A stretch of 64,000 nucleotides of DNA. It comes from Sphingopyxis sp. TUF1. GTDB taxonomy: Bacteria; Pseudomonadota; Alphaproteobacteria; Sphingomonadales; Sphingomonadaceae. The notes beneath the pieces are model-generated. The model saw only the letters and a program-made list of their open reading frames with translations. It was not told the origin of the DNA and did not search any database. The stretch is from assembly GCF_036687315.1 (NCBI RefSeq), contig NZ_CP144683.1, positions 1,550,001-1,614,000 on the forward strand, in the 5' to 3' direction. The translations under genes were made by a program, and so were the position numbers. Below are positions 35,965 to 50,975 of the stretch, piece after piece. Positions within the stretch are counted from its first letter, which is position 1. Every line of letters starts with the position of its first letter.

Positions 35965-36557
35965 TGCGGCGCCAGTCCGATAGTGCGCAGCCACGCCAAC
36001 AGGAGAAGCATCGGCATTCCGACGATGGTCCAGGGGTCGCCCTCGACCCGGTCGAACAATTGCACGCCCGCTCCCTCGATTTCGTAACAGCCCACCGTCC
36101 AGCGGATGCTATCCCAGTTTTGCGCGACATAGTCGGTAATGAAGCCATCGGACAAGGGCCGCATCCACAGCTTCGCCTCACCGATCGCCCGCCACACCGG
36201 CGCCCCGTCGCGCGCGGCGACCACCGCGCTGAACAGCCGGTGGCGCGTGCCCGCCATGCGCCGGAGATGGTCGGCGGCGTCCTCCGGGCTTTCGGGCTTC
36301 GTCAGCATCGTCCCATCGTCGAGCACGAGCGTCGAGTCCGCGCCGAGCACTGTCACGCCGGGAAGCCGCGACGAGATTTTGACCGCCTTGGCTTCGGCAA
36401 GCGCGTCCGCAATGTTGCGCGGCGTCTGCCCGGCGGCGAGCAGCGACGCGGTGAGCGCTTCCTCGTCGACATGCGCTGCGGTCGCCTCGAACACCAGCCC
36501 GGCGGCACGGAGCATTGCGGCGCGGCCACTGCTTTGCGAGGCGAGGACCAGGCTCAT
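35961..36557 (-). CDS. maf: Maf-family nucleotide pyrophosphatase
   Basis: The 198-residue Maf protein starts at 36557 (MSLVLASQSSGRAAMLRAAGL). Members hydrolyse non-canonical or specific NTPs and affect septation. VLGADSTLVLDDGTMLTKP carries the catalytic Asp region and RFL-like LWMRPLSDGFITDYV follows. The second Pro-Arg of the usual S-P-R-R motif reads Ser-Gly-Arg here. It overlaps ppsR and aroE by 4 bases each. Confidence 0.9.
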   Translation of the reverse strand: MSLVLASQSSGRAAMLRAAGLVFEATAAHVDEEALTASLLAAGQTPRNIADALAEAKAVKISSRLPGVTVLGADSTLVLDDGTMLTKPESPEDAADHLRRMAGTRHRLFSAVVAARDGAPVWRAIGEAKLWMRPLSDGFITDYVAQNWDSIRWTVGCYEIEGAGVQLFDRVEGDPWTIVGMPMLLLLAWLRTIGLAPQ

Positions 36558-37366
36558 GCGCTCGCGCGATCCTCGACGAGCTTGATCACCGCCGCCGCGG
36601 TTTCCTCGATCGAGCGGCGCGTCACGTCGATTACCGGCCATCCGTTGTCGGCGAACATCCGCCGCGCATAGGCCAGCTCGGCCTTGACGCGTTCTTCATC
36701 GACATAGCTCGTCTCGGGCGCCTGGTTTAATGAAAGCAGACGATTGCGGCGGACCTGAACGAGGCGATCGAGCCCCGTGGTAAGCCCGACCACCATCGGG
36801 CGCTTCAGGTCGAACAGCGCGGCGGGCGGCGGCGATTCGGGAACGATCGGAATATTCGCGGTCTTGAACCCGCGGTTGGCGAGATAGATGCTCGTCGGGG
36901 TTTTCGACGTGCGCGATACGCCCGCAAGAATGATGTCCGCCTGCTCCCAATTCTCCCAGCCGATGCCATCGTCGTGCGCAACGGTGAACTGGATCGCCTC
37001 GACCCGGGCGAAATAGGCGGCGTCGAGAGCATGTTGTCGTCCCGGGCGGCCCTTCGCTTCCTGCCCGAGCATCCGCGAGAGTGCGTCGGTCACCGCATCG
37101 AGCGCGGCCACGGTCGGCAGGTTGAGTATTCCCGCACGACGTTCGAGGCTGCTGCGCAGCTCACCGTTGACGAGCGTGAAAAGGATCATGCCGGGACTCG
37201 CCTGCACTTCGGCCATGATGCGGTCGAGATGCGATTCGGATCGCACCATCGGCCAGAAATGGCGCACGACCTCGACATCGTCGAACTGCGCGATGGCCGC
37301 CTTGGCGATATTTTCCAGCGTTTCGCCCGTGGAGTCGGATATAAGGTGCAAGTGGAGGCGGCCCAT
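36554..37366 (-). CDS. ppsR: Pyruvate, water dikinase (PEP synthase) regulatory protein, DUF299
   Basis: The 270-residue bifunctional kinase/pyrophosphorylase starts MGRLHLHLISDSTGETLENIAKA. Its P-loop-like motif is GVSRTSKTPTSIYLANRG. Family members regulate PEP synthase or pyruvate phosphate dikinase by Thr phosphorylation. The target gene is not in the window. It is the first gene left of oriC, and the start is inferred from the conserved N-terminus; the frame is open into the origin. Confidence 0.9.
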   Translation of the reverse strand: MGRLHLHLISDSTGETLENIAKAAIAQFDDVEVVRHFWPMVRSESHLDRIMAEVQASPGMILFTLVNGELRSSLERRAGILNLPTVAALDAVTDALSRMLGQEAKGRPGRQHALDAAYFARVEAIQFTVAHDDGIGWENWEQADIILAGVSRTSKTPTSIYLANRGFKTANIPIVPESPPPAALFDLKRPMVVGLTTGLDRLVQVRRNRLLSLNQAPETSYVDEERVKAELAYARRMFADNGWPVIDVTRRSIEETAAAVIKLVEDRASA

Positions 37367-37445
37367 CGCCCCGCTTTCGGGCGCAGCGGAAAAAAAGGCA
37401 ATAGGTCCGCAACCTCTCCAGCATCTCGGGGACGACCACAGAGCC

Positions 37446-37454
37446 TGTGGATAA
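37446..37454 (-). promoter_or_regulatory. DnaA box 1
   Basis: The plus strand reads TGTGGATAA, the exact reverse complement of the consensus TTATCCACA. Confidence 0.85.
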
Positions 37455-37526
37455 GTTTGGCAAAAGCGTCGGGATGATTTCGGCACGCGCAATTCATCCC
37501 CCGCCGCGCCGATTCCGCTCCCGTGC

Positions 37527-37535
37527 TTATCCACA
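37527..37535 (+). promoter_or_regulatory. DnaA box 2
   Basis: A perfect TTATCCACA. Its start is exactly 20 bases from that of box 3, so both lie on about the same face of the helix. Confidence 0.87.
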
Positions 37536-37546
37536 TGGGATGAATC

Positions 37547-37555
37547 TTATCCACA
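37547..37555 (+). promoter_or_regulatory. DnaA box 3
   Basis: A perfect TTATCCACA in the same orientation as box 2, followed by the degenerate reverse box TGTGAATTA at 37559-37567. Confidence 0.87.
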
Positions 37556-37681
37556 TGCTGTGAATTAGGGGGAAAGCGGCCGACGACTCTGCGGACGATG
37601 GCAACTGACGGCGAGTCAAGCTGTTGGCAAAGTGGGCGCCCCGGCCTAAAGCCGCCTTGTCCGCCGACCTACAAACCACCA

Positions 37682-37704
37682 CAATATTATTAAATATTAT
37701 ATGA
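37682..37704. other. AT-rich candidate DNA unwinding element
   Basis: This stretch (CAATATTATTAAATATTATATG) is almost free of G and C in a GC-rich genome. It ends about 20 bases before the hemE start codon, so it may also overlap the hemE promoter. Confidence 0.7.
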
Positions 37705-37723
37705 TGAGAGAAAGAGGGGCCGC

Positions 37724-38752
37724 GTGAAGGCGTCACCGAAGAACCTCCTCGCGGCGCTGCGCGGGGTGCGACACGAGCGGCCCCCGCTCTGGCTCATGCG
37801 GCAGGCGGGTCGTTATCTTCCCGAATATCGCGCCCTTCGCGAGACCAAGGGCGGTTTCCTCGAACTATGCTACGATCCCGAAGCCGCGGCTGAAGTCACT
37901 TTGCAACCCATCCGGCGTTTCGGGTTCGACGGTTCGATTCTCTTTTCGGACATTCTTGTGATCCCGCACGCGCTCGGCCAGCATCTGTGGTTCGAGGCGG
38001 GCGAAGGTCCGCGACTGGCGCCGCCGCTCGTCGACAGCGCCTTGACGTCCCTCGAAGCCGCGCCGCAGCGGCTCGACCCGGTCTATGCGACCGTCGCGCG
38101 CGTCGCAGCGTCGCTGCCATCCGAAACGACCTTTCTCGGCTTTGCGGGAAGCCCGTGGACCGTCGCCACCTATATGGTCGCGGGGCAGGGATCGAAGGAC
38201 CAGGCGGCGGCGCGGCGTATGGCCTATGGCGATCCCGCGGCGTTCCAGGCGATCATCGATGCGATCGTCGATTTGACCGTCACCTATTTATCCGGCCAGA
38301 TCGAACATGGCGTCGATGCGGTGCAGCTTTTCGACAGCTGGGCGGGCAGCCTCAGCCCGGCGCAGTTCGAACAATGGGTGATCGCCCCCAACGCCGAGAT
38401 CGTCCGCCGTCTCAAGGCGCTGCACCCCGACACGCCGATCATCGGCTTTCCGAAGGGCGCGGGGGGCAAGCTTCGCGCCTATGCCGACGAAACCCGCGTC
38501 GATGCGATCGGCCTCGACGAAACGGTCGATCCCGCCTGGGCCGATGCCGCCTTGCCGCCACATCTTCCAGTACAGGGCAATCTCGACCCGCTCGCGCTCG
38601 TCGCAGGCGGGTCCGCACTCGACGCCGCCATCGACCGCATCCTTGCAGCATTCCCGGTGCGTCCCCATATCTTCAACCTGGGCCACGGGATCGTTCCCGA
38701 CACCCCGATCGCCCATGTCGAACATCTGATCAAACGCGTTCGCGGCGGATAA
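37724..38752 (+). CDS. hemE: Uroporphyrinogen decarboxylase
   Basis: The 342-residue heme-pathway enzyme converts uroporphyrinogen III to coproporphyrinogen III. The GTG start at 37724 has AGAGGGG just upstream. Signatures are PLWLMRQAGRYLPEYR (residues 21-36), GSILFSDILVIP with the catalytic Asp, and GFAGSPWTVATYM. It is the first gene right of oriC, with hemJ one base downstream. Confidence 0.97.
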   Translation: MKASPKNLLAALRGVRHERPPLWLMRQAGRYLPEYRALRETKGGFLELCYDPEAAAEVTLQPIRRFGFDGSILFSDILVIPHALGQHLWFEAGEGPRLAPPLVDSALTSLEAAPQRLDPVYATVARVAASLPSETTFLGFAGSPWTVATYMVAGQGSKDQAAARRMAYGDPAAFQAIIDAIVDLTVTYLSGQIEHGVDAVQLFDSWAGSLSPAQFEQWVIAPNAEIVRRLKALHPDTPIIGFPKGAGGKLRAYADETRVDAIGLDETVDPAWADAALPPHLPVQGNLDPLALVAGGSALDAAIDRILAAFPVRPHIFNLGHGIVPDTPIAHVEHLIKRVRGG

Positions 38753-41181: not shown

Positions 41182-41203
41182 GCATAGGGCGGGTTAAGCG
41201 ATC

Positions 41204-41926
41204 ATGCTGGACATATTGATGCAGGCCGGCGCGCACGCCGGCGGATTTGGCGGACCCGCGGGCATGTGGGACGCGATCGTTCACGATTTTTCGAACATCA
41301 CGCAGCCCGCGGCTTTCGCAGCCTTCCTGCAGGTGCTGATGATCGACATCGTGCTCGCGGGCGACAACGCGATCGTCGTGGGTGCGCTTGCCGCGGGGCT
41401 TCCCGCCGATCAGCGCCGCAAGGTGATCCTGATCGGCGTGCTCGCCGCGCTGGTGCTGCGTATCGCCTTCGCCCTTGTCGTGACGCAGCTGATGCAGATC
41501 GTCGGGCTGATCTTTATCGGCGGACTGTTGCTCGTCTGGGTGGCATGGAAGATGTGGCGCGAGCTGCGTGACGGCGCGCATTCGGCGGGTTCGCCGGAGA
41601 TTGCAGGCGACGAGCATTCGGGTCTGAAACCCGCGAAGAGCTTTGCTGCTGCGGCGTGGGCCGTGGCCGTCGCCGACGTCAGCATGAGCCTTGACAATGT
41701 GCTCGCGGTCGCAGGCGCGGCGCGCGACCATCCCGGCATCCTGATCGTAGGCCTGATCTTTGCGGTCGCGCTAATGGGGATCGCGGCGAACATCATCGCC
41801 AAATATATCGAGCGTTATCGTTGGATCGCATACATCGGCCTTGCGGTGATCGTCTATGTCGCGGTCAAGATGATCTACGAAGGCTGGATCGACCCCAGCG
41901 TCGGCCTCGGCACACTTTTCGGCTGA
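41204..41926 (+). CDS. TerC-family integral membrane protein
   Basis: The 240-residue protein has about seven membrane segments. It shows the TerC pattern with two acidic repeats: QVLMIDIVLAGDNAIVVGALAAGLP in the first half and VADVSMSLDNVLAVAGAA in the second. These acidic residues are expected to bind metal; TerC relatives export Mn or protect against tellurite and calcium stress. It begins 22 bases after rho and may be co-transcribed. A hairpin terminator follows. Confidence 0.85.
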   Translation: MLDILMQAGAHAGGFGGPAGMWDAIVHDFSNITQPAAFAAFLQVLMIDIVLAGDNAIVVGALAAGLPADQRRKVILIGVLAALVLRIAFALVVTQLMQIVGLIFIGGLLLVWVAWKMWRELRDGAHSAGSPEIAGDEHSGLKPAKSFAAAAWAVAVADVSMSLDNVLAVAGAARDHPGILIVGLIFAVALMGIAANIIAKYIERYRWIAYIGLAVIVYVAVKMIYEGWIDPSVGLGTLFG

Positions 41927-41933
41927 ATGCAAA

Positions 41934-41962
41934 AAGGGGCGGGTTGATATAGCCCGCCCCTT
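41934..41962 (+). terminator. Bidirectional terminator after the TerC gene
   Basis: The arms AAGGGGCGGG and CCCGCCCCTT are exact inverses around a 9-base loop, with an A run before the left arm and TTCATTG after the right. It lies between convergent genes and can serve both. Confidence 0.65.
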
Positions 41963-41984
41963 CATTGTAGGCTGCAAGCGCTCG

Positions 41985-42152
41985 CTAGAGCTTGCGGACC
42001 GGTGTTGCACTGGTCGTGCCTTTCACGAGATTGATCGCGTGGTCGCAGTCGGTCTCATTCCAGTAAGACTCGCCCGATGCGACGATCTCGTGATTGGCGG
42101 CTTTCAGGCGCCAACGCCATTGGCCACCCTGTGTGTATTTCTCAAAGTACAT
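41985..42152 (-). CDS. YegP-family DUF1508 protein
   Basis: This 55-residue gene is easily missed because of its length. Translation from the ATG at 42152 begins MYFEKYTQGGQWRWRLKAAN, continues HEIVASGESYWNETDCDHAI and ends PVRKL. It matches one DUF1508 unit (E. coli YegP has two). A strong AAAGGAG ribosome-binding site precedes it by 7 bases. Function is unknown. It converges with the TerC gene and diverges from the AT-rich MerR-like gene. Confidence 0.85.
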   Translation of the reverse strand: MYFEKYTQGGQWRWRLKAANHEIVASGESYWNETDCDHAINLVKGTTSATPVRKL

Positions 42153-42328
42153 GGATTTTTCTCCTTTCTAGTCGCGCCTAAAAACTGTGCGGTAGCGACG
42201 AGGTAGAAGCTCGCACACTATATCATGTGTCACAAACAGAAAATGACCACAATTTATTGATCTTCTTTACGAAGAGAGCGCTTTTTGTTGATTTTACTGC
42301 GAATATATTACAAGTTCTGAGCAGAACT

Positions 42329-42799
42329 ATGATTATTGAAGATCATGATGCTCGAAATGCTGCGCGGCTTGCCGGCCTAAGGTCGGTGGCAATGATCGAC
42401 TATCTAGAACGATCAGGCGTTTTTTTTCCGACAAGGAAGAGAGAGAAAAACAGAGGAAAAAGAAGAAGATATACGTTTAGAGACGTGCTCGTTTTAAAAA
42501 CAATCGCTGTTCTTCTAAGTAACGGTGCATCGGTAGCAAACCTAAAACACGCGCTTGAAGGACTACAACGTATTAAATGGAACGCTGACGAGACTGTCTT
42601 GGAAGACAGCGCCGGAGCGTTACGGCATTTAGTTGTCAGCTCTCAAAGAATATATTTTGCGAGGAGTAGGGATGAGCTGCTCGATTTGGCAGCAGGCGGC
42701 CAACTATCGTTTTCATTTTTGATAGATCTCGATTCTATCCATCGAGAACTTTCTCAGTCTTGGCGCCAGGGGAATCTCAGCTTGGCCCAAAGCGGTTGA
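42329..42799 (+). CDS. MerR-like DNA-binding protein on AT-rich DNA
   Basis: The 156-residue protein starts at an ATG at 42329; a GTG at 42227 would add 34 residues but has no clear ribosome-binding site. RLAGLRSVAMIDYLERSGVF followed by RRRYTFRDVLVLKTIAVLLSNGASVANLKHAL resembles a winged MerR helix-turn-helix with a basic wing (KREKNRGKRRRY). The C-terminal half has no recognised fold. Its DNA has about 33% GC in two counted 60-base rows, far below its neighbours, with AAA, AGA, TTA and ATA codons. It is probably acquired. Target unknown. Confidence 0.65.
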   Translation: MIIEDHDARNAARLAGLRSVAMIDYLERSGVFFPTRKREKNRGKRRRYTFRDVLVLKTIAVLLSNGASVANLKHALEGLQRIKWNADETVLEDSAGALRHLVVSSQRIYFARSRDELLDLAAGGQLSFSFLIDLDSIHRELSQSWRQGNLSLAQSG

Positions 42800-42830
42800 A
42801 TTTCTGGGACTAAGCTCCATCTGGCGTGGG

Positions 42831-43232
42831 ATGTCCGAGCTTCATATGACCCGCGTCGCCGTCGGCTGTTCCGACTATCCGGCGCTGGAGGCGCGTATCG
42901 CCACCTATGCGAGGGATGGCGAGATCCGCTTCACGACGCGTTTCAAGCCCAAGCGCGCCGACGAGCTGATCGGTGGCCGGCTGCATTTCATTGTCAAACA
43001 TATGCTCGTCGCGCGCGTGCAAATCCTGCGTTTCGACGATCGCAGTGACGGGAGGATCGATATCGTCTGCGTTGCCAACCTCGAGCGCGTGCACCCGCAG
43101 CCCAAGCGCGCGCATCAGGGGTGGCGCTATCTGGCCGAAGCCGATGCGCCCAGAGGGCTTGACGAAACAAGCGGCGTCGGCGACCTGCCGCCCGAACTCT
43201 ATCGCGAACTCGCCGAACTCAGCCTGATCTAG
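42831..43232 (+). CDS. DUF1489 family protein
   Basis: The 133-residue protein has the DUF1489 pattern of alphaproteobacteria: MTRVAVGCSDYPALEARI, TTRFKPKRADELIGG, and HQGWRYLAEADAPRGL. Function is unknown. Codon use is back to the GC-rich norm, so the AT-rich patch ends before it. Its stop overlaps the stop of the convergent gene by 3 bases. Confidence 0.82.
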   Translation: MSELHMTRVAVGCSDYPALEARIATYARDGEIRFTTRFKPKRADELIGGRLHFIVKHMLVARVQILRFDDRSDGRIDIVCVANLERVHPQPKRAHQGWRYLAEADAPRGLDETSGVGDLPPELYRELAELSLI

Positions 43233-43627
43233 CCCGCCTGCGCTGCGAGCATCGCCGCCATTTTTTCCCAGACCTTGTTGATGGCCTTGAGCGGTCGCAC
43301 CATTACCTTGAAATCGCTGATTTTTCCTTCATCATTCCAGCGGATAATGTCGACGCCGTTGACCTGGATTCCGTCGAGCTCGGTCTGAAATTCGAGGACT
43401 GCTTGATCGCCATCGACGATTTCGCGCAAATAGCGGAAATGCTCCCCGCCAAGCACATGGCTTGCCGCGTGGAGATAGGCGAAGACCTTGTCGGCGCCTT
43501 CCTGCGGTGTGTGGACGACGGGCGAGTGAAATACGGCATCGTCGGCGAGCAAACTCCGCAAACGCTGCGGGTCGCCACCGTCCGCCATATAGGCGTGCCA
43601 CGCGGCGAGTCCGGGATGCGCGCTCAT
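43229..43627 (-). CDS. NTF2-like/SnoaL-like protein
   Basis: The 132-residue protein has the cone-shaped NTF2-like fold pattern: MADGGDPQRLRSLLADDAVFHSPVVHTP near the start and ELDGIQVNGVDIIRWNDEGKISDFKVMVRP in the second half. Such proteins are small hydrolases, isomerases or binding proteins; the substrate is unknown. It follows the dienelactone hydrolase gene with a 4-base overlap, which suggests a linked function. Confidence 0.8.
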   Translation of the reverse strand: MSAHPGLAAWHAYMADGGDPQRLRSLLADDAVFHSPVVHTPQEGADKVFAYLHAASHVLGGEHFRYLREIVDGDQAVLEFQTELDGIQVNGVDIIRWNDEGKISDFKVMVRPLKAINKVWEKMAAMLAAQAG

Positions 43628-44322
43628 GCCAGATGCTCGGCGAAAAAGGCCCGGGTGCGGCCATCGGCAAGCCTGGCGCCTTCGTCGTTGCGACGATTGC
43701 CCATCGTTGCCGCAAAGCCATGATCGAGGCCGGAATAATCGTGGAGCGTCACCTTCGGATGCGAATCGAGCCCTTCGTGAATCCGCTTCTGCGCTTCATG
43801 GTCGACCAGATGATCCTCGGTCGGGATGTGGAGCATCAGCGGATTGGCGATCGCGTGGCTTTCGTTCAGCATCTGGTCGATCATCACGCCATAATAGCCG
43901 ACCGACGCATCGACGTCGGTGCGCGCCGCCGCCATATAGGCAAGGCGGCCGCCAAGGCAGAAGCCGACGCAGCCAACCTTGCTGGCCCCCTGGCTGTGGA
44001 GCCAGCGGATCGCCGCTTCGATATCCTTCACTCCGTCGTTGGCGTCATATTGACCGAAATAGCCGAACGCTTCCTGGAGTTCGGTCTCGACGTCGGGATT
44101 GAGTTCGACTCCGGGCGCGAAGCGCCAGAAAATATCGGGGGCGATCGCCAGATAGCCTTCGGCTGCCCAATCGTCGCATTTCTGTCGAATGCCCGCGTTC
44201 ACGCCGAAGATTTCCGGGATGACGATGATCGCGCGCGAACTGTCGGCGTCGGGGCGTGCGACATAGGCGGGTATTACGTCCGTCCCGTCGAGCGCGGGGA
44301 TGGTTATGTTCGTCGCGGGCAT
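43624..44322 (-). CDS. Dienelactone hydrolase family protein
   Basis: The 232-residue alpha/beta hydrolase has the nucleophile Cys in VGCVGFCLGGRLAYMAA and the other catalytic residues in HIPTEDHLVD and SGLDHGF. The start at 44322 (MPATNITIPALDGTDVIPAYVA) has AGGAGAG upstream. An upstream frame extension is not needed. The C-x-x-GG signature fits the DLH group that opens lactones. It forms an operon with the NTF2-like gene. Confidence 0.88.
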   Translation of the reverse strand: MPATNITIPALDGTDVIPAYVARPDADSSRAIIVIPEIFGVNAGIRQKCDDWAAEGYLAIAPDIFWRFAPGVELNPDVETELQEAFGYFGQYDANDGVKDIEAAIRWLHSQGASKVGCVGFCLGGRLAYMAAARTDVDASVGYYGVMIDQMLNESHAIANPLMLHIPTEDHLVDHEAQKRIHEGLDSHPKVTLHDYSGLDHGFAATMGNRRNDEGARLADGRTRAFFAEHLA

Positions 44323-44427
44323 GGCGGGAGCTCTCCTGACTCTTGCTTCTTGGCAATGAAAGCGCAAAGCTAGCGGTGCCGCGGTCATGGCTCAAGCGGC
44401 ATAGCATCAGCGGGGCGGAGACAGGCG

Positions 44428-46049: not shown

Positions 46050-46065
46050 CGTTCCACGTGAAACA
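46050..46065. promoter_or_regulatory. parS: parS-like site 1
   Basis: CGTTCCACGTGAAACA matches the consensus TGTTTCACGTGAAACA at 14 of 16 positions. It starts on the base after the mnmE stop. Confidence 0.85.
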
Positions 46066-46124: not shown

Positions 46125-47996
46125 ATGAATAGCAGCAGCACAACTTTCGATGTCATCGTCGTCGGCGGTGGCCATGCCGGGACCGAGGCCGCCGCGGCCG
46201 CGGCGCGGCTCGGCGCGCGGGTGGCGCTGGTCAGTTTCGATCCGGCGTTGATCGGCACGATGTCGTGCAACCCGGCGATTGGAGGGCTGGGCAAAGGCCA
46301 TCTGATGCGCGAGGTCGATGCGCTCGACGGGTGGATGGCGCGCGCGGCCGATGCCGCGGCGATCCATTACCGGATGCTCAACGCGTCGAAGGGTGCGGCG
46401 GTGCAGGGGCCGCGCATCCAGGCCGATCGGAAGCTGTACCGCGACGCGATCCAAACTTTGCTCGCCGCCGAAGACGCTATCATCGTCGTTGCGGGCGAAG
46501 CGGCCGGCCTGCGCCTGTCGAGCGAAGGACAGATCGAGGGACTCGATCTGGCTGACGGCACCGCGCTGACCGCGCGCGCGGTGGTACTCGCGACGGGCAC
46601 CTTCCTTGGCGGGCGGCTGTTTCGCGGCGAGGAACGCATGGCGGGCGGGCGCATCGGCGAGGCGGGCGCGCACCGGCTTGCCGGGCAGCTTCGCGGCGCC
46701 GACCTGCCGATGGCACGGCTCAAGACGGGCACGCCGCCGCGACTCGACGGGCGAACGATCGACTGGGCGCGGCTGAGTGAGCAGCCGTCGGATAGCGCCG
46801 AGGGCGCCAACTGGACCTGTTCCACGTGGAACAATGAACGGACGGTTCCCCAGATTTTCTGCGCGATCACGCGTACAAACGCCGAATCGCACCGGATCAT
46901 CGCCGACAATCTGCACCGCTCGCCGCTGTTCACCGGCGCAATCGGCGCAGCGGGACCGCGCTATTGCCCGTCGATCGAGGACAAGATCCACCGCTTTGCC
47001 GACCGCGACGGGCATCAGGTGTTTCTCGAGCCAGAGGGGCTCGATACGCATCTTGTCTATCCCAACGGCATTTCGACGTCGCTGCCCGCCGATGTCCAGC
47101 TGGCAATGCTGCGCACGATGGAGGGGCTCGAAGCGGTTGAAATGGTCGTTCCTGGCTATGCCGTCGAATATGATCATATCGACCCGCGCGCGCTCGACCG
47201 GACATTGCAAGTGCGCGCGATGCCTGGTCTTTATTGCGCAGGGCAGATCAACGGGACGACGGGATATGAGGAAGCGGCGGCGCAAGGGCTCGTCGCGGGC
47301 GCCAACGCCGCGCTGGCGGTGCAGGGGCGCGAGCCGCTGATCCTCGATCGCAGCCTGTCCTATATCGGGGTGATGGTCGACGATCTGGTGCTGCAGGGGG
47401 TGAGCGAGCCGTACCGGATGCTCACCGCGCGCGCCGAATATCGCCTGCGGCTGCGCGCCGACAATGCTGCGACGCGGCTGACGCCGAAGGGGATCGCGCT
47501 GGGGCTGGTGCGACCCGCGACTGCGGCGTTGTTCGCCGCGCGGATGGACGAGCGCGCGCGCGCCGAGGCGCTGCTCGAAGTGCCGGTGACAACCGCCGAT
47601 TATGCGGCGATCGGCCTGCCGCTGCCCGGCGACGGGATCGCGCGGCGGCGAATCGACCTGTTGCGCTTCCCCGATATGGCGATCGAGCGGCTGACTATAT
47701 TGGCGCCCGAGTTGTGCGCCATCGACGCAGCGATTCTCGCCGAGGTCGTCGAAGATGCGCATTATGCGCCCTATATCGCGCGGCACGAGGCCGAGCTCCG
47801 CGCGCTGGCGGCAAATGAAGCGATCCTCCTCGACCCCGCGCTTGATTATGCGGCGATAGGCGGCCTGTCGCGCGAAATGGTCGAGCGATTGAGCAAGGCG
47901 CGGCCCGAGACATTGGGGCAGGCGGCGCGGATCGATGGCGTGACTCCCGCGGCGCTGACTGCGATTATGGTTCATAGCCGGCGGCGGGCGGCTTGA
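46125..47996 (+). CDS. mnmG: tRNA uridine 5-carboxymethylaminomethyl modification enzyme MnmG (GidA)
   Basis: The 623-residue FAD enzyme is the partner of MnmE. The dinucleotide fold is [24 protein letters not shown] at residues 8-31. Other signatures are [28 protein letters not shown] and [19 protein letters not shown] parS palindrome is embedded near residue 232 (CSTWN). It lies 75 bases after mnmE with parS-like site 1 between. A long opposite-strand frame is a shadow. Confidence 0.97.
46818..46833. promoter_or_regulatory. parS: parS-like site 2 (inside mnmG)
   Basis: TGTTCCACGTGGAACA, a perfect 16-bp palindrome and a known variant of the ParB-binding consensus, sits in the coding frame of mnmG where it specifies Cys-Ser-Thr-Trp-Asn. 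Confidence 0.88.
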
Positions 47997-48600: not shown

Positions 48601-49239
48601 ATGAGCGAAGATGAGGCACGCGCCTGGATTGAGGCTGCGTTTTCCCCGACGTCGGCGCAATGGACAAAGCTTGAACGCTTCGTCGCGATGCTTATCGCCG
48701 AAAATGCGCAGCAGAATCTGATCGCGGCGTCGACGATTCCGGCGATCTGGGTGCGGCATATCGCTGACAGCGCGCAGCTGTTGGCGCTTGATTCCGAAGG
48801 CGAAGGGCTTTGGATCGACCTTGGAAGTGGGCCGGGGTTGCCGGGGCTGGTCGTCGCGATTCTGGCCGAGCGGCCGATGCTGCTCGTCGAATCGCGGCGG
48901 CGGCGGTGTGATTTCCTGCGCGCGGTCGCGGCCGAGCTGGGGCTGGATCACGTCGAGGTTGCCGAAGCGCCGCTCGAGCGCGTCGCGACGCGCCGCGCCG
49001 CGACGATCAGCGCGCGCGCCTTTGCTCCGCTCGATCGGTTGATCGACTTATCCGCGCGTTTTTCCACCGAATCGACGCGTTGGCTGCTGCCAAAGGGCCG
49101 AAATGCCGTTAAGGAACTGGCGTTGCTGCCCGAGGCATGGCAGAGAATGTTCCACGTGGAACAGAGCCGCACCGACGCCGAAAGCGGCATCTTGGTCGGC
49201 ACGGGGCGTATCGCGCCGAAAAAGCGAGGGAAAGCATGA
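48601..49239 (+). CDS. rsmG: 16S rRNA (guanine527-N7)-methyltransferase RsmG (GidB)
   Basis: The 212-residue SAM-dependent enzyme methylates G527 of 16S rRNA; loss gives low-level streptomycin resistance in E. coli. The start at the ATG 48601 (MSEDEARAWIEAAF) fits, though TTG/GTG starts 24-27 bases upstream are possible. WVRHIADSAQLLAL and the SAM motif WIDLGSGPGLPGLVVAI are present. parS-like site 3 lies near residue 183 (MFHVEQ). Its TGA overlaps the parA ATG. Confidence 0.95.
   Translation: MSEDEARAWIEAAFSPTSAQWTKLERFVAMLIAENAQQNLIAASTIPAIWVRHIADSAQLLALDSEGEGLWIDLGSGPGLPGLVVAILAERPMLLVESRRRRCDFLRAVAAELGLDHVEVAEAPLERVATRRAATISARAFAPLDRLIDLSARFSTESTRWLLPKGRNAVKELALLPEAWQRMFHVEQSRTDAESGILVGTGRIAPKKRGKA
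49148..49163. promoter_or_regulatory. parS: parS-like site 3 (inside rsmG)
   Basis: TGTTCCACGTGGAACA, identical to site 2, encodes part of the RsmG C-terminus (Met-Phe-His-Val-Glu-Gln). It lies about 90 bases before parA. Confidence 0.88.
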
Positions 49240-50018
49240 TCCGGATCGCGGTGGCAAACCAGAAGGGTGGGGTTGGAAAGACGACGACCGCGATCAATCT
49301 GGCCACCGCGCTCGCGGCGACGGGATGGCGCACGCTGATCATCGACCTCGATCCGCAAGGCAATGCGTCGACCGGCCTCGGCATCAAACAGTCGCAGCGC
49401 GAATATTCGAGTTACGAACTGCTGCGCGGCGACGCGGGAATCGCCGAATGTGCGATCCCGACCGCGGTGCCGCGGCTCGACATCATACCCGCGACGGTCG
49501 ATCTGTCGGGCGCCGAGATCGAGCTGATCGAATATCAGGATCGGCTCAACCGGCTACAGCAAGCCTTGTCAGGCGCCGAAGCGGGGCAGTGGGACATCTG
49601 CCTGATCGATTGCCCGCCGTCGCTGGGAATGCTGACGCTGAACGCGCTGATCGCCGCCGAATCGCTGATCGTGCCGCTGCAATGCGAATTTTTCGCGCTC
49701 GAGGGGCTGAGCCAGCTACTGACGACGGTCGAGCGCGTGCGCGAGCGGTTCAACCAGAAACTGTCGATCCTTGGCGTCGCGCTGACGATGTTCGACCGGC
49801 GCAACCGGCTGACCGACCAGGTTTCCGACGATGTGCGCGAGGTGCTGGGGCCGGTGGTGTTCGACACGGTGATCCCGCGCAATGTCCGCCTGTCCGAAGC
49901 GCCGAGCCACGGGCTTCCCGCGCTGATCTATGACCATCGCTGCGCCGGGTCGGCGGCCTATATTGCGCTCGCGCGCGAGTTGATCGACCGGCTTCCGGCG
50001 ATTCGCAAGGCGGCATAA
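49236..50018 (+). CDS. parA: Chromosome partitioning ATPase ParA
   Basis: The 260-residue ATPase segregates the origin region. It starts MIRIAVANQKGGVGKTTTAINLA, so the deviant Walker A motif (KGGVGKTT) is at residues 10-17. LIIDLDPQGNASTGLG, CLIDCPPSLGMLTLNAL and the DNA-binding part VIPRNVRLSEAPSHG follow. The start overlaps the rsmG stop; an upstream in-frame extension is not homologous. Confidence 0.97.
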   Translation: MIRIAVANQKGGVGKTTTAINLATALAATGWRTLIIDLDPQGNASTGLGIKQSQREYSSYELLRGDAGIAECAIPTAVPRLDIIPATVDLSGAEIELIEYQDRLNRLQQALSGAEAGQWDICLIDCPPSLGMLTLNALIAAESLIVPLQCEFFALEGLSQLLTTVERVRERFNQKLSILGVALTMFDRRNRLTDQVSDDVREVLGPVVFDTVIPRNVRLSEAPSHGLPALIYDHRCAGSAAYIALARELIDRLPAIRKAA

Positions 50019-50975
50019 ATGACTGACAATAAAGAAGAAAAAAGTGGATCGTCGCCGCGTAAGCGTCCGTCGGGGCTGGGCCGCGGGTTGAACGCGCTGT
50101 TCGGCGACGCCGCGGTCGAGGCGCCGGTGCTCGCGACCCCCGGCGCGGCTGCGCGTGCTGCGCCGGTGTCGGGCGATTCGGTTCAGCATGTGCCGGTCGG
50201 ATCGATCCGGCCGCTTCCCGGCCAGCCGCGGCGCCATTTCGACGAGGTCGCGATCACCGAGCTTGCCGATTCGATTGCCTTGCGCGGCTTGCTGCAACCG
50301 GTCATCGTGCGCCGATCGCCCGATGGTGACGGGTATCAGCTCGTCGCGGGCGAGCGTCGCTGGCGCGCGGCGCAGCGCGCGGGGCTGCACCAGATTCCGG
50401 CGCTGGTGCGCGAGCTTGACGATGCCGCGACCTATGAGATCGCGCTCGTCGAGAATATCCAGCGCCAGGATTTGAACGCGATCGAGGAAGCGGGCGCCTA
50501 TCGCCGCCTGATCGACGATTTCGGGCATAATCAGGAGGCGCTGGCAAAGCTGGTCGGCAAGTCGCGCAGCCATGTCGCGAATCTGATGCGCCTGCTCGAC
50601 CTGCCCGAGGCGGTGCAGGCGCTGGTCGGCGACGGATCGCTCGCGATGGGCCATGCCCGCGCGCTCATCGGCGCCGACGACGCCGAAGCGATCGCGCGGC
50701 GGGTGGTCAAGGAAGGCCTGTCGGTGCGCGCGGTCGAGGCGCTGGTGCGCGACGGGAAGGGCGGCGGGCGCAAGGCGCCGCTCGAATATAAAAGCATGGA
50801 CGGCGTGGGCCGCGACCCCGACATCGTCGCGGTCGAACGCCATCTGTCCGAACTGCTCGGGATCGGCGTCGCGATCCAATATACGGGCGGAGGCAAGGGT
50901 GCGCTGACGCTGAAATTCGCGTCGCTCGACCAGCTCGACATGATCTGCCAGCGATTGTCGGGCGAGGGGATTTAG
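50019..50975 (+). CDS. parB: Chromosome partitioning protein ParB
   Basis: The 318-residue CTPase/DNA-binding protein loads on parS and spreads. The N-terminus has RPSGLGRGLNALFGD. Its CTP-binding box region is GERRWRAAQRAGLHQIP, followed by EIALVENIQRQDLNAIEEA, and the helix-turn-helix is NQEALAKLVGKSRSHVANLMRLL. The C-terminal end is the dimerisation domain. It begins on the base after the parA stop. Confidence 0.97.
   Translation: MTDNKEEKSGSSPRKRPSGLGRGLNALFGDAAVEAPVLATPGAAARAAPVSGDSVQHVPVGSIRPLPGQPRRHFDEVAITELADSIALRGLLQPVIVRRSPDGDGYQLVAGERRWRAAQRAGLHQIPALVRELDDAATYEIALVENIQRQDLNAIEEAGAYRRLIDDFGHNQEALAKLVGKSRSHVANLMRLLDLPEAVQALVGDGSLAMGHARALIGADDAEAIARRVVKEGLSVRAVEALVRDGKGGGRKAPLEYKSMDGVGRDPDIVAVERHLSELLGIGVAIQYTGGGKGALTLKFASLDQLDMICQRLSGEGI

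Follow-up and report, generated by a model that had tools for sequence, protein, structure and literature searches.

We find that the 357-base gap between ppsR and hemE is, to judge from its sequence and that of its relatives, almost certainly the chromosomal origin of replication (oriC) of this Sphingopyxis-like sphingomonad, and that it is of the alphaproteobacterial hemE type. The gap lies at 1.5875 Mb of a genome assembled as one contig (3,470,982 bases), inside the 64,000-nucleotide window that we analysed (contig positions 1,550,001-1,614,000; positions below are those of the window unless the genome is named), whereas dnaA lies at 1.23 Mb, 356 kb away. The assignment, which an original prediction had made from the letters of the window, is supported by DnaA boxes, an AT run, gene order, conservation, chromosome polarity fitted with the terminus fixed at dif, the dif site and parS. 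As an origin it is sound but ordinary, being of a well-described type already predicted in Sphingopyxis. For Sphingopyxis granuli TFA, a different genome, and for most Sphingomonadaceae in DoriC, PMC4741004 gives a predicted oriC near hemE which, as here, has a conserved order of genes around it and holds a putative duplex-unwinding element (DUE) together with several DnaA boxes; that assignment follows Brassinga et al. 2001.

DnaA boxes and an AT-only run lie between divergent ppsR and hemE

The genes on both sides of the gap face outward, as predicted (first codons at 37366 on the minus strand and 37724 on the plus strand), which sets the gap between divergent hemE and ppsR (COG1806/RP001), the position of alphaproteobacterial hemE-type origins; ppsR represents the RP001/CC0001-type flank of these origins. 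All further neighbours that had been named were identified as well: maf, aroE, coaE and dnaQ beyond ppsR, and hemJ, rho, mnmE, mnmG, rsmG, parA and parB beyond hemE. Between rho and mnmE, at about 41200-44400, the G+C content drops to 0.55 from about 0.65 around it, over genes that are TerC-like, MerR-like, DUF1489, SnoaL-like and dienelactone-hydrolase-like. This stretch may be partly a later insertion or merely a local stretch of low G+C.

Three perfect DnaA boxes (TTATCCACA) are present in the gap (Table 1), the window count being exactly 3 against 0.09 expected in shuffles, and two of them stand in tandem, 20 bases apart on the plus strand. To these we add a weak box, TAATTCACA; in some relatives a perfect or nearly perfect box occupies this place on the minus strand. 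The word itself is not enriched in the contig (11 copies, against 14 for a backwards-read control); it is the clustering that exceeds chance, as befits a DnaA-dependent bacterial oriC. The ppsR-hemE gap is the only place in the contig where several perfect boxes cluster, and from 11 random sites only about 5e-7 triples within 110 bases would be expected. Inspection by eye of the bases following the boxes revealed no convincing run of DnaA-trio repeats.

Table 1. Features of the putative origin and its surroundings (window positions, except where the genome is named)
Feature	Position	Strand	Evidence or remark
ppsR, PEP synthase regulator (DUF299/COG1806)	36554..37366	-	NCBIfam PRK05339, E=4.3e-97
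Putative oriC, entire ppsR-hemE gap	37367..37723		DnaA boxes, conservation, chromosome polarity
Perfect DnaA box 1	37446..37454	-	box at same place and strand recurs in relatives
GANTC (GATTC)	37511..37515		same sequence in 4 closest relatives
Perfect DnaA box 2	37527..37535	+	TTGTCCACA in 4 closest relatives
GANTC (GAATC)	37542..37546		motif match
Perfect DnaA box 3	37547..37555	+	perfect in 4 closest relatives as well
Weak DnaA box	37559..37567	-	2 mismatches; absent from the original prediction
GANTC (GACTC)	37585..37589		column of the alignment where GANTC is most frequent (50 of 74 rows, counting the window)
GANTC (GAGTC)	37613..37617		block GAGTCAA..TGTTGGCAAA conserved in 4 closest relatives
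Possible IHF site	37614..37626	+	1 mismatch to WATCAANNNNTTR; match also in 23% of shuffles
AT-only run, likely duplex-unwinding element	37683..37702		sequence only
hemE, uroporphyrinogen decarboxylase	37724..38752	+	TIGR01464, E=3.3e-120
parS-like site, 1 mismatch	46050..46065		palindrome match
parS, perfect	46818..46833		palindrome match
parS, perfect	49148..49163		palindrome match
parA, partition ATPase (start approximate)	49137..50018	+	PF13614, E=1.1e-60
parB	50019..50975	+	ParB_N, HTH_ParB and ParB_C domains
dif-like site	genome 3,292,889-3,292,911		3 mismatches to pattern used

Near the boxes lies the AT-rich element expected of such an origin: an AT-only run of 20 bases, likely the duplex-unwinding element. 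It is the window's sole AT-only run of at least 14 bases, and just one run of at least 20 bases occurs in the 795,000 bases sampled from this genome. Some relatives, though not all, likewise show AT runs at about this place. Many Sphingomonas loci carry GAATCTT/GACTCTT-like words in the last 75 bases before hemE instead of a pure AT run, and these are reminiscent of the GATC-led 13-mers in the unwinding element of E. coli. An IHF-like site is found at -140 to -80 in 22 of 75 relatives; the single one-mismatch site in the window is not significant alone.

These features might also be read as those of a divergent promoter region only, in which DnaA regulates the transcription of hemE or ppsR; the true origin would then lie elsewhere near 1.5 Mb. 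Divergent genes do need promoters in the gap, the bases directly 5' of hemE (AGAGAAAGAGGG, identical in the four closest relatives) resemble a ribosome-binding region, and the polarity fits described below cannot alone distinguish the gap from other sites within 100 kb of it. Against this, the whole contig holds no second cluster of perfect DnaA boxes, an AT-only run of such length is nearly unique in the sample, and chromosome polarity, dif and parS converge on the neighbourhood of the gap. We therefore consider a promoter-only gap very improbable and retain the gap as the origin.

The divergent gap and its DnaA boxes are kept in relatives

The relatives compared were the best 80 of 593 confirmed stretches from a hemE search. 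The hemE of the window is 90-92% identical (best segment) to those of Sphingopyxis panaciterrae, two other Sphingopyxis records and one Sphingomonadales MAG (L063-L066), which points to Sphingopyxis or a near sister of it as the probable host. In the four nearest relatives, boxes 1-3 stand at the same places, box 1 being perfect in two and having 1 mismatch in the other two.

A divergent ppsR-hemE gap of 271-539 bases is kept in 75 of the 80 best relatives' loci; in the remaining 5, ppsR was not found within the piece of the locus examined. Seventy of the 75 gaps contain a DnaA box with at most 1 mismatch and 37 a perfect one, while no box within that limit was found in five (L107, L111, L138, L140 and L141). 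The core word TCCACA/TGTGGA occurs 219 times in the 75 gaps, against 11.6 +/- 3.4 in shuffles. A class-wide search of 190 genomes gave a hemE match in 148, and among the best 30 of these loci the divergent gap is present in 29, with no ppsR found in the other one; here TCCACA/TGTGGA occurs 56 times, against 7.2 +/- 2.7 in shuffles.

Box arrangement is less general. The exact tandem spacing, allowing at most 2 mismatches, is rare: counted at any position in the genome, it occurs in 8 of 119 family genomes, our own included. Tandem boxes at this spacing were accordingly rejected as a family-wide mark. In 12 of the 75 relatives a plus-strand box is present at -85 to -58 before hemE; at that place (37657-37665) the window has only TTGTCCGCC, which with its 3 mismatches proves nothing.

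Chromosome polarity, dif and parS point to an origin at the gap or close to it

We sampled 60 stretches in addition to the window, 812,000 distinct bases in all or 23.4% of the chromosome. The dif-like site listed in Table 1 lies almost opposite the gap, giving arms of 1.705 and 1.766 Mb. In the 20 kb stretch around it, all five plus-strand KOPS-like octamers come before dif and all three minus-strand octamers after it, so that KOPS converge on dif between 3,291,578 and 3,294,042. Another dif-like match, at 2,610,595, is closer to the pattern (2 mismatches) and was rejected, since the sampled octamers there and in both adjoining samples run plus, while at 3,292,889 their direction turns.

When 40 evenly spaced 10-kb samples are split into arms at the gap and dif, 13 of 19 right-arm samples have positive GC skew (mean +0.023) and 17 of 21 left-arm samples negative GC skew (mean -0.020), and 73 of 81 KOPS-like GGGNAGGG octamers point in the expected direction. 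Fits with the terminus fixed at dif were then scored as log-likelihoods (lnL), which overstate certainty because neighbouring bins are correlated yet treated as independent, and which resolve about 100 kb. For GC skew (84 bins) the best origin is at 1.54-1.58 Mb, with deficits of 1.3 units at 1.59 Mb, 6.0 at 1.85 Mb and 13.3 at 1.23 Mb (dnaA). For KOPS-like octamers (181 sites) it is at 1.485-1.52 Mb, with 1.48-1.525 and 1.575-1.595 Mb within 2 units; the deficit is 2.0 at the gap, where 131 of the 181 sites agree, 5.6 at dnaA and 9.6 at 1.85 Mb. Both signals are G-rich and so not fully independent, and the best origins in these dense fits are displaced from the gap, to one side, by up to 100 kb.

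The GC-skew check attached to the original prediction, which asked whether the minimum lies at the gap or elsewhere, for instance at dnaA, came out in support of the assignment, with some results against it. What held, on 23% of the chromosome and with the terminus fixed at dif, is that the origin fits 1.54-1.58 Mb and not dnaA. What did not hold is an exact minimum: cumulative skew inside the window has its minimum near 18-20 kb, dips again near 40 kb and climbs steeply from about 44 kb, and an unconstrained fit to the 40 sparse samples switches at 1.82-1.91 Mb, about 250 kb off the gap. That last switch, the one ground for an origin at about 1.85 Mb, moved to 1.54-1.58 Mb once 20 further stretches were added and dif was fixed; 1.85 Mb then falls below the best origin by the deficits given above for both signals, and no cluster of perfect boxes occurs there, which leaves such an origin a negligible chance. 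Around 1.65-1.95 Mb of the genome, GC skew is near zero or slightly negative in parts, on the arm where it is expected to be positive, perhaps through past rearrangement or acquired DNA.

An origin at dnaA, as in many bacteria, could draw on one perfect DnaA box just behind the dnaA frame, a box with 1 mismatch at the frame's end and five GANTC sites within 203 bases upstream. We judge it extremely unlikely, for the locus lies 13.3 (GC skew) and 5.6 (KOPS) lnL units below the best origin and 356 kb from the gap, and according to PMC8116508 dnaA is not conserved near ori in Sphingomonadales.

The neighbourhood of the gap also has the partition elements that accompany alphaproteobacterial hemE-type origins. 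The three parS sites of Table 1, close to parAB, are 8.3-11.4 kb distant from the gap, and the sole other match in the genome (at most 1 mismatch) is at 2,372,114. Skew, KOPS-like octamers, dif and parS jointly place the origin at or near the gap and speak against the dnaA locus. A composition switch with the terminus opposite, as in DnaA-dependent bacterial origins, is present on 23% of the chromosome with dif fixed, at a resolution of about 100 kb and with the sparse-only fit 250 kb off.

GANTC sites are enriched in sphingomonad origin gaps

Four GANTC sites, the target of CcrM, lie within 107 bases of the gap and go beyond the inventory of the original prediction. Their number in this one gap is modest (shuffle P 0.04) and is reached by 1.6% of the window's 357-base stretches, those overlapping the gap included; the 812 kb sampled also contain four other clusters of 4 GANTC within 104 bases. 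Because the count in the window is weak and other clusters are equally tight, the claim of enrichment rests on the comparison across relatives.

This comparison gave the following picture. First, the 75 relatives' gaps contain 337 GANTC sites, against 106.8 +/- 10.3 in shuffles that ignore shared ancestry and hence overstate the number of independent cases, whereas the controls GATC, GTNAC and CTNAG are not raised over shuffles in the same gaps. Second, the enrichment is local: density is 13.5 per kb in the gaps, whereas whole loci (74 of 75, with their gaps) have 2.3 per kb, about half of what shuffles predict for them. The 330 bases before rho (65 loci) have 2.9 per kb, or 63 sites against 89 in shuffles. 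Third, measured from hemE, the sites gather at about -240 to -201, -160 to -101 and -60 to -21, and 55 of the 75 relatives have one in the last 75 bases before the gene. Fourth, at several shared GANTC columns GA-TC stays constant and the middle base changes (the column at 37587 has 26 C and 24 A), the pattern that conservation of the methylation site itself would produce. Class-wide, in 29 loci, the enrichment is weaker: 99 sites against 56.8 +/- 6.7, or 7.3 per kb, where the loci outside the gaps have 1.4.

The genome encodes a candidate enzyme for these sites. Its one match to the N6/N4-methylase Pfam family carries a RAMA domain and scores E=1.3e-153 against the CcrM structure 6pbd, so that enriched GANTC and a CcrM gene, the marks of a methylation-marked origin, occur together. 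GcrA likewise has one match in the genome, in a family whose control search also matched a Sulfolobus.

Two further groups of sites were noted. Upstream of dnaA (taken as the 500 bases before the dnaA frame, with a presumed start codon), five GANTC fall within 203 bases at genome 1,229,866-1,230,068; three clusters of this kind, this one included, occur in the 812 kb sampled. Five more lie close together at 48714-48893 of the window, inside rsmG just before parAB and a parS site.

Two CtrA motifs have no match in the gap

The experimentally located hemE/COG1806 origin of Caulobacter crescentus (Cori) shares with our gap the flanking genes, DnaA boxes and an AT-rich stretch (PMC1914354), and several GANTC motifs are likewise reported from the origins of C. 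crescentus and close relatives (PMC3973325). Cori, however, has five CtrA sites and one IHF site beside its five DnaA boxes (PMC1914354), whereas our gap has 0 and 0 exact matches to the two CtrA motifs tested, TTAAN7TTAA and TTAACC/GGTTAA, and an IHF site is just possible. By these two motifs the gap does not belong to the Caulobacter Cori subtype. In the 75 relatives' gaps, TTAAN7TTAA occurs 3 times, against 0.2 in shuffles, and TTAACC/GGTTAA 3 times, against 8.2. A CtrA-controlled origin was rejected on the lack of matches in the gap, though CtrA may act indirectly or through degenerate sites. For Sphingomonas melonis, the review PMC8116508 reports both that growth and viability do not suffer when ctrA is lost and that CtrA has an influence on replication.

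Discussion

We propose that DnaA-ATP would bind box 1 on the minus strand and the tandem boxes 2 and 3 on the plus strand and then fill the weaker sites. The resulting complex, perhaps bent by IHF near 37620, would melt the AT run, where the helicase would be loaded. Once the fork passes, the four CcrM sites would be hemimethylated, which may tie re-initiation to the cell cycle, and the nearby parS sites with ParAB would then separate the sister origins.

The E. coli oriC, with its Dam/SeqA sites, is dense in the target (GATC) of the Dam adenine methylase. Our origin is similarly dense in adenine-methylase sites, as is the region upstream of dnaA; it differs in having CcrM/GANTC in place of Dam/GATC, with 0 GATC in the gap of the window. 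Sphingomonad origins might thus carry a selected cluster of CcrM sites, extending in many relatives into the unwinding region, which together with the GANTC-dense dnaA upstream region would form a CcrM-based counterpart of the Dam/SeqA sequestration of E. coli in a lineage mostly without the tested CtrA motifs; hemimethylation would block re-firing until CcrM acts. This is a speculative proposal to which we attach rather low credence. According to the review PMC6090056, CcrM differs from Dam in that initiation in C. crescentus does not require it, and because of this a strict SeqA-like role is disfavoured there. The same review describes repABC origins as rich in GANTC, and PMC11514494 compares methylation control of the RepC-dependent ori2 of Agrobacterium with Dam/SeqA, a published analogue of the proposal for a second origin; for a sphingomonad DnaA origin we found none in the literature covered. 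PMC8067484 reports GANTC as the most abundant methylated motif in a Sphingomonas and describes the motif as over-represented in intergenic regions. Titles and abstract openings of literature on GANTC with Sphingomonas/Sphingomonadales, or on oriC with CcrM, contained no statement of GANTC enrichment at sphingomonad origins, most subscription journals lying outside this coverage. The cluster of CcrM sites with the missing CtrA motifs, whose role is inferred, could be the sole part of these results with specialist interest.

The location of oriC fixes the replichore arms and gene dosage in this genome. Since dnaA lies 356 kb from oriC, numbering the chromosome from dnaA would misplace the origin. 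Dense CcrM sites with few or no CtrA motifs at sphingomonad origins raise a testable question: how initiation is limited to once per cycle.
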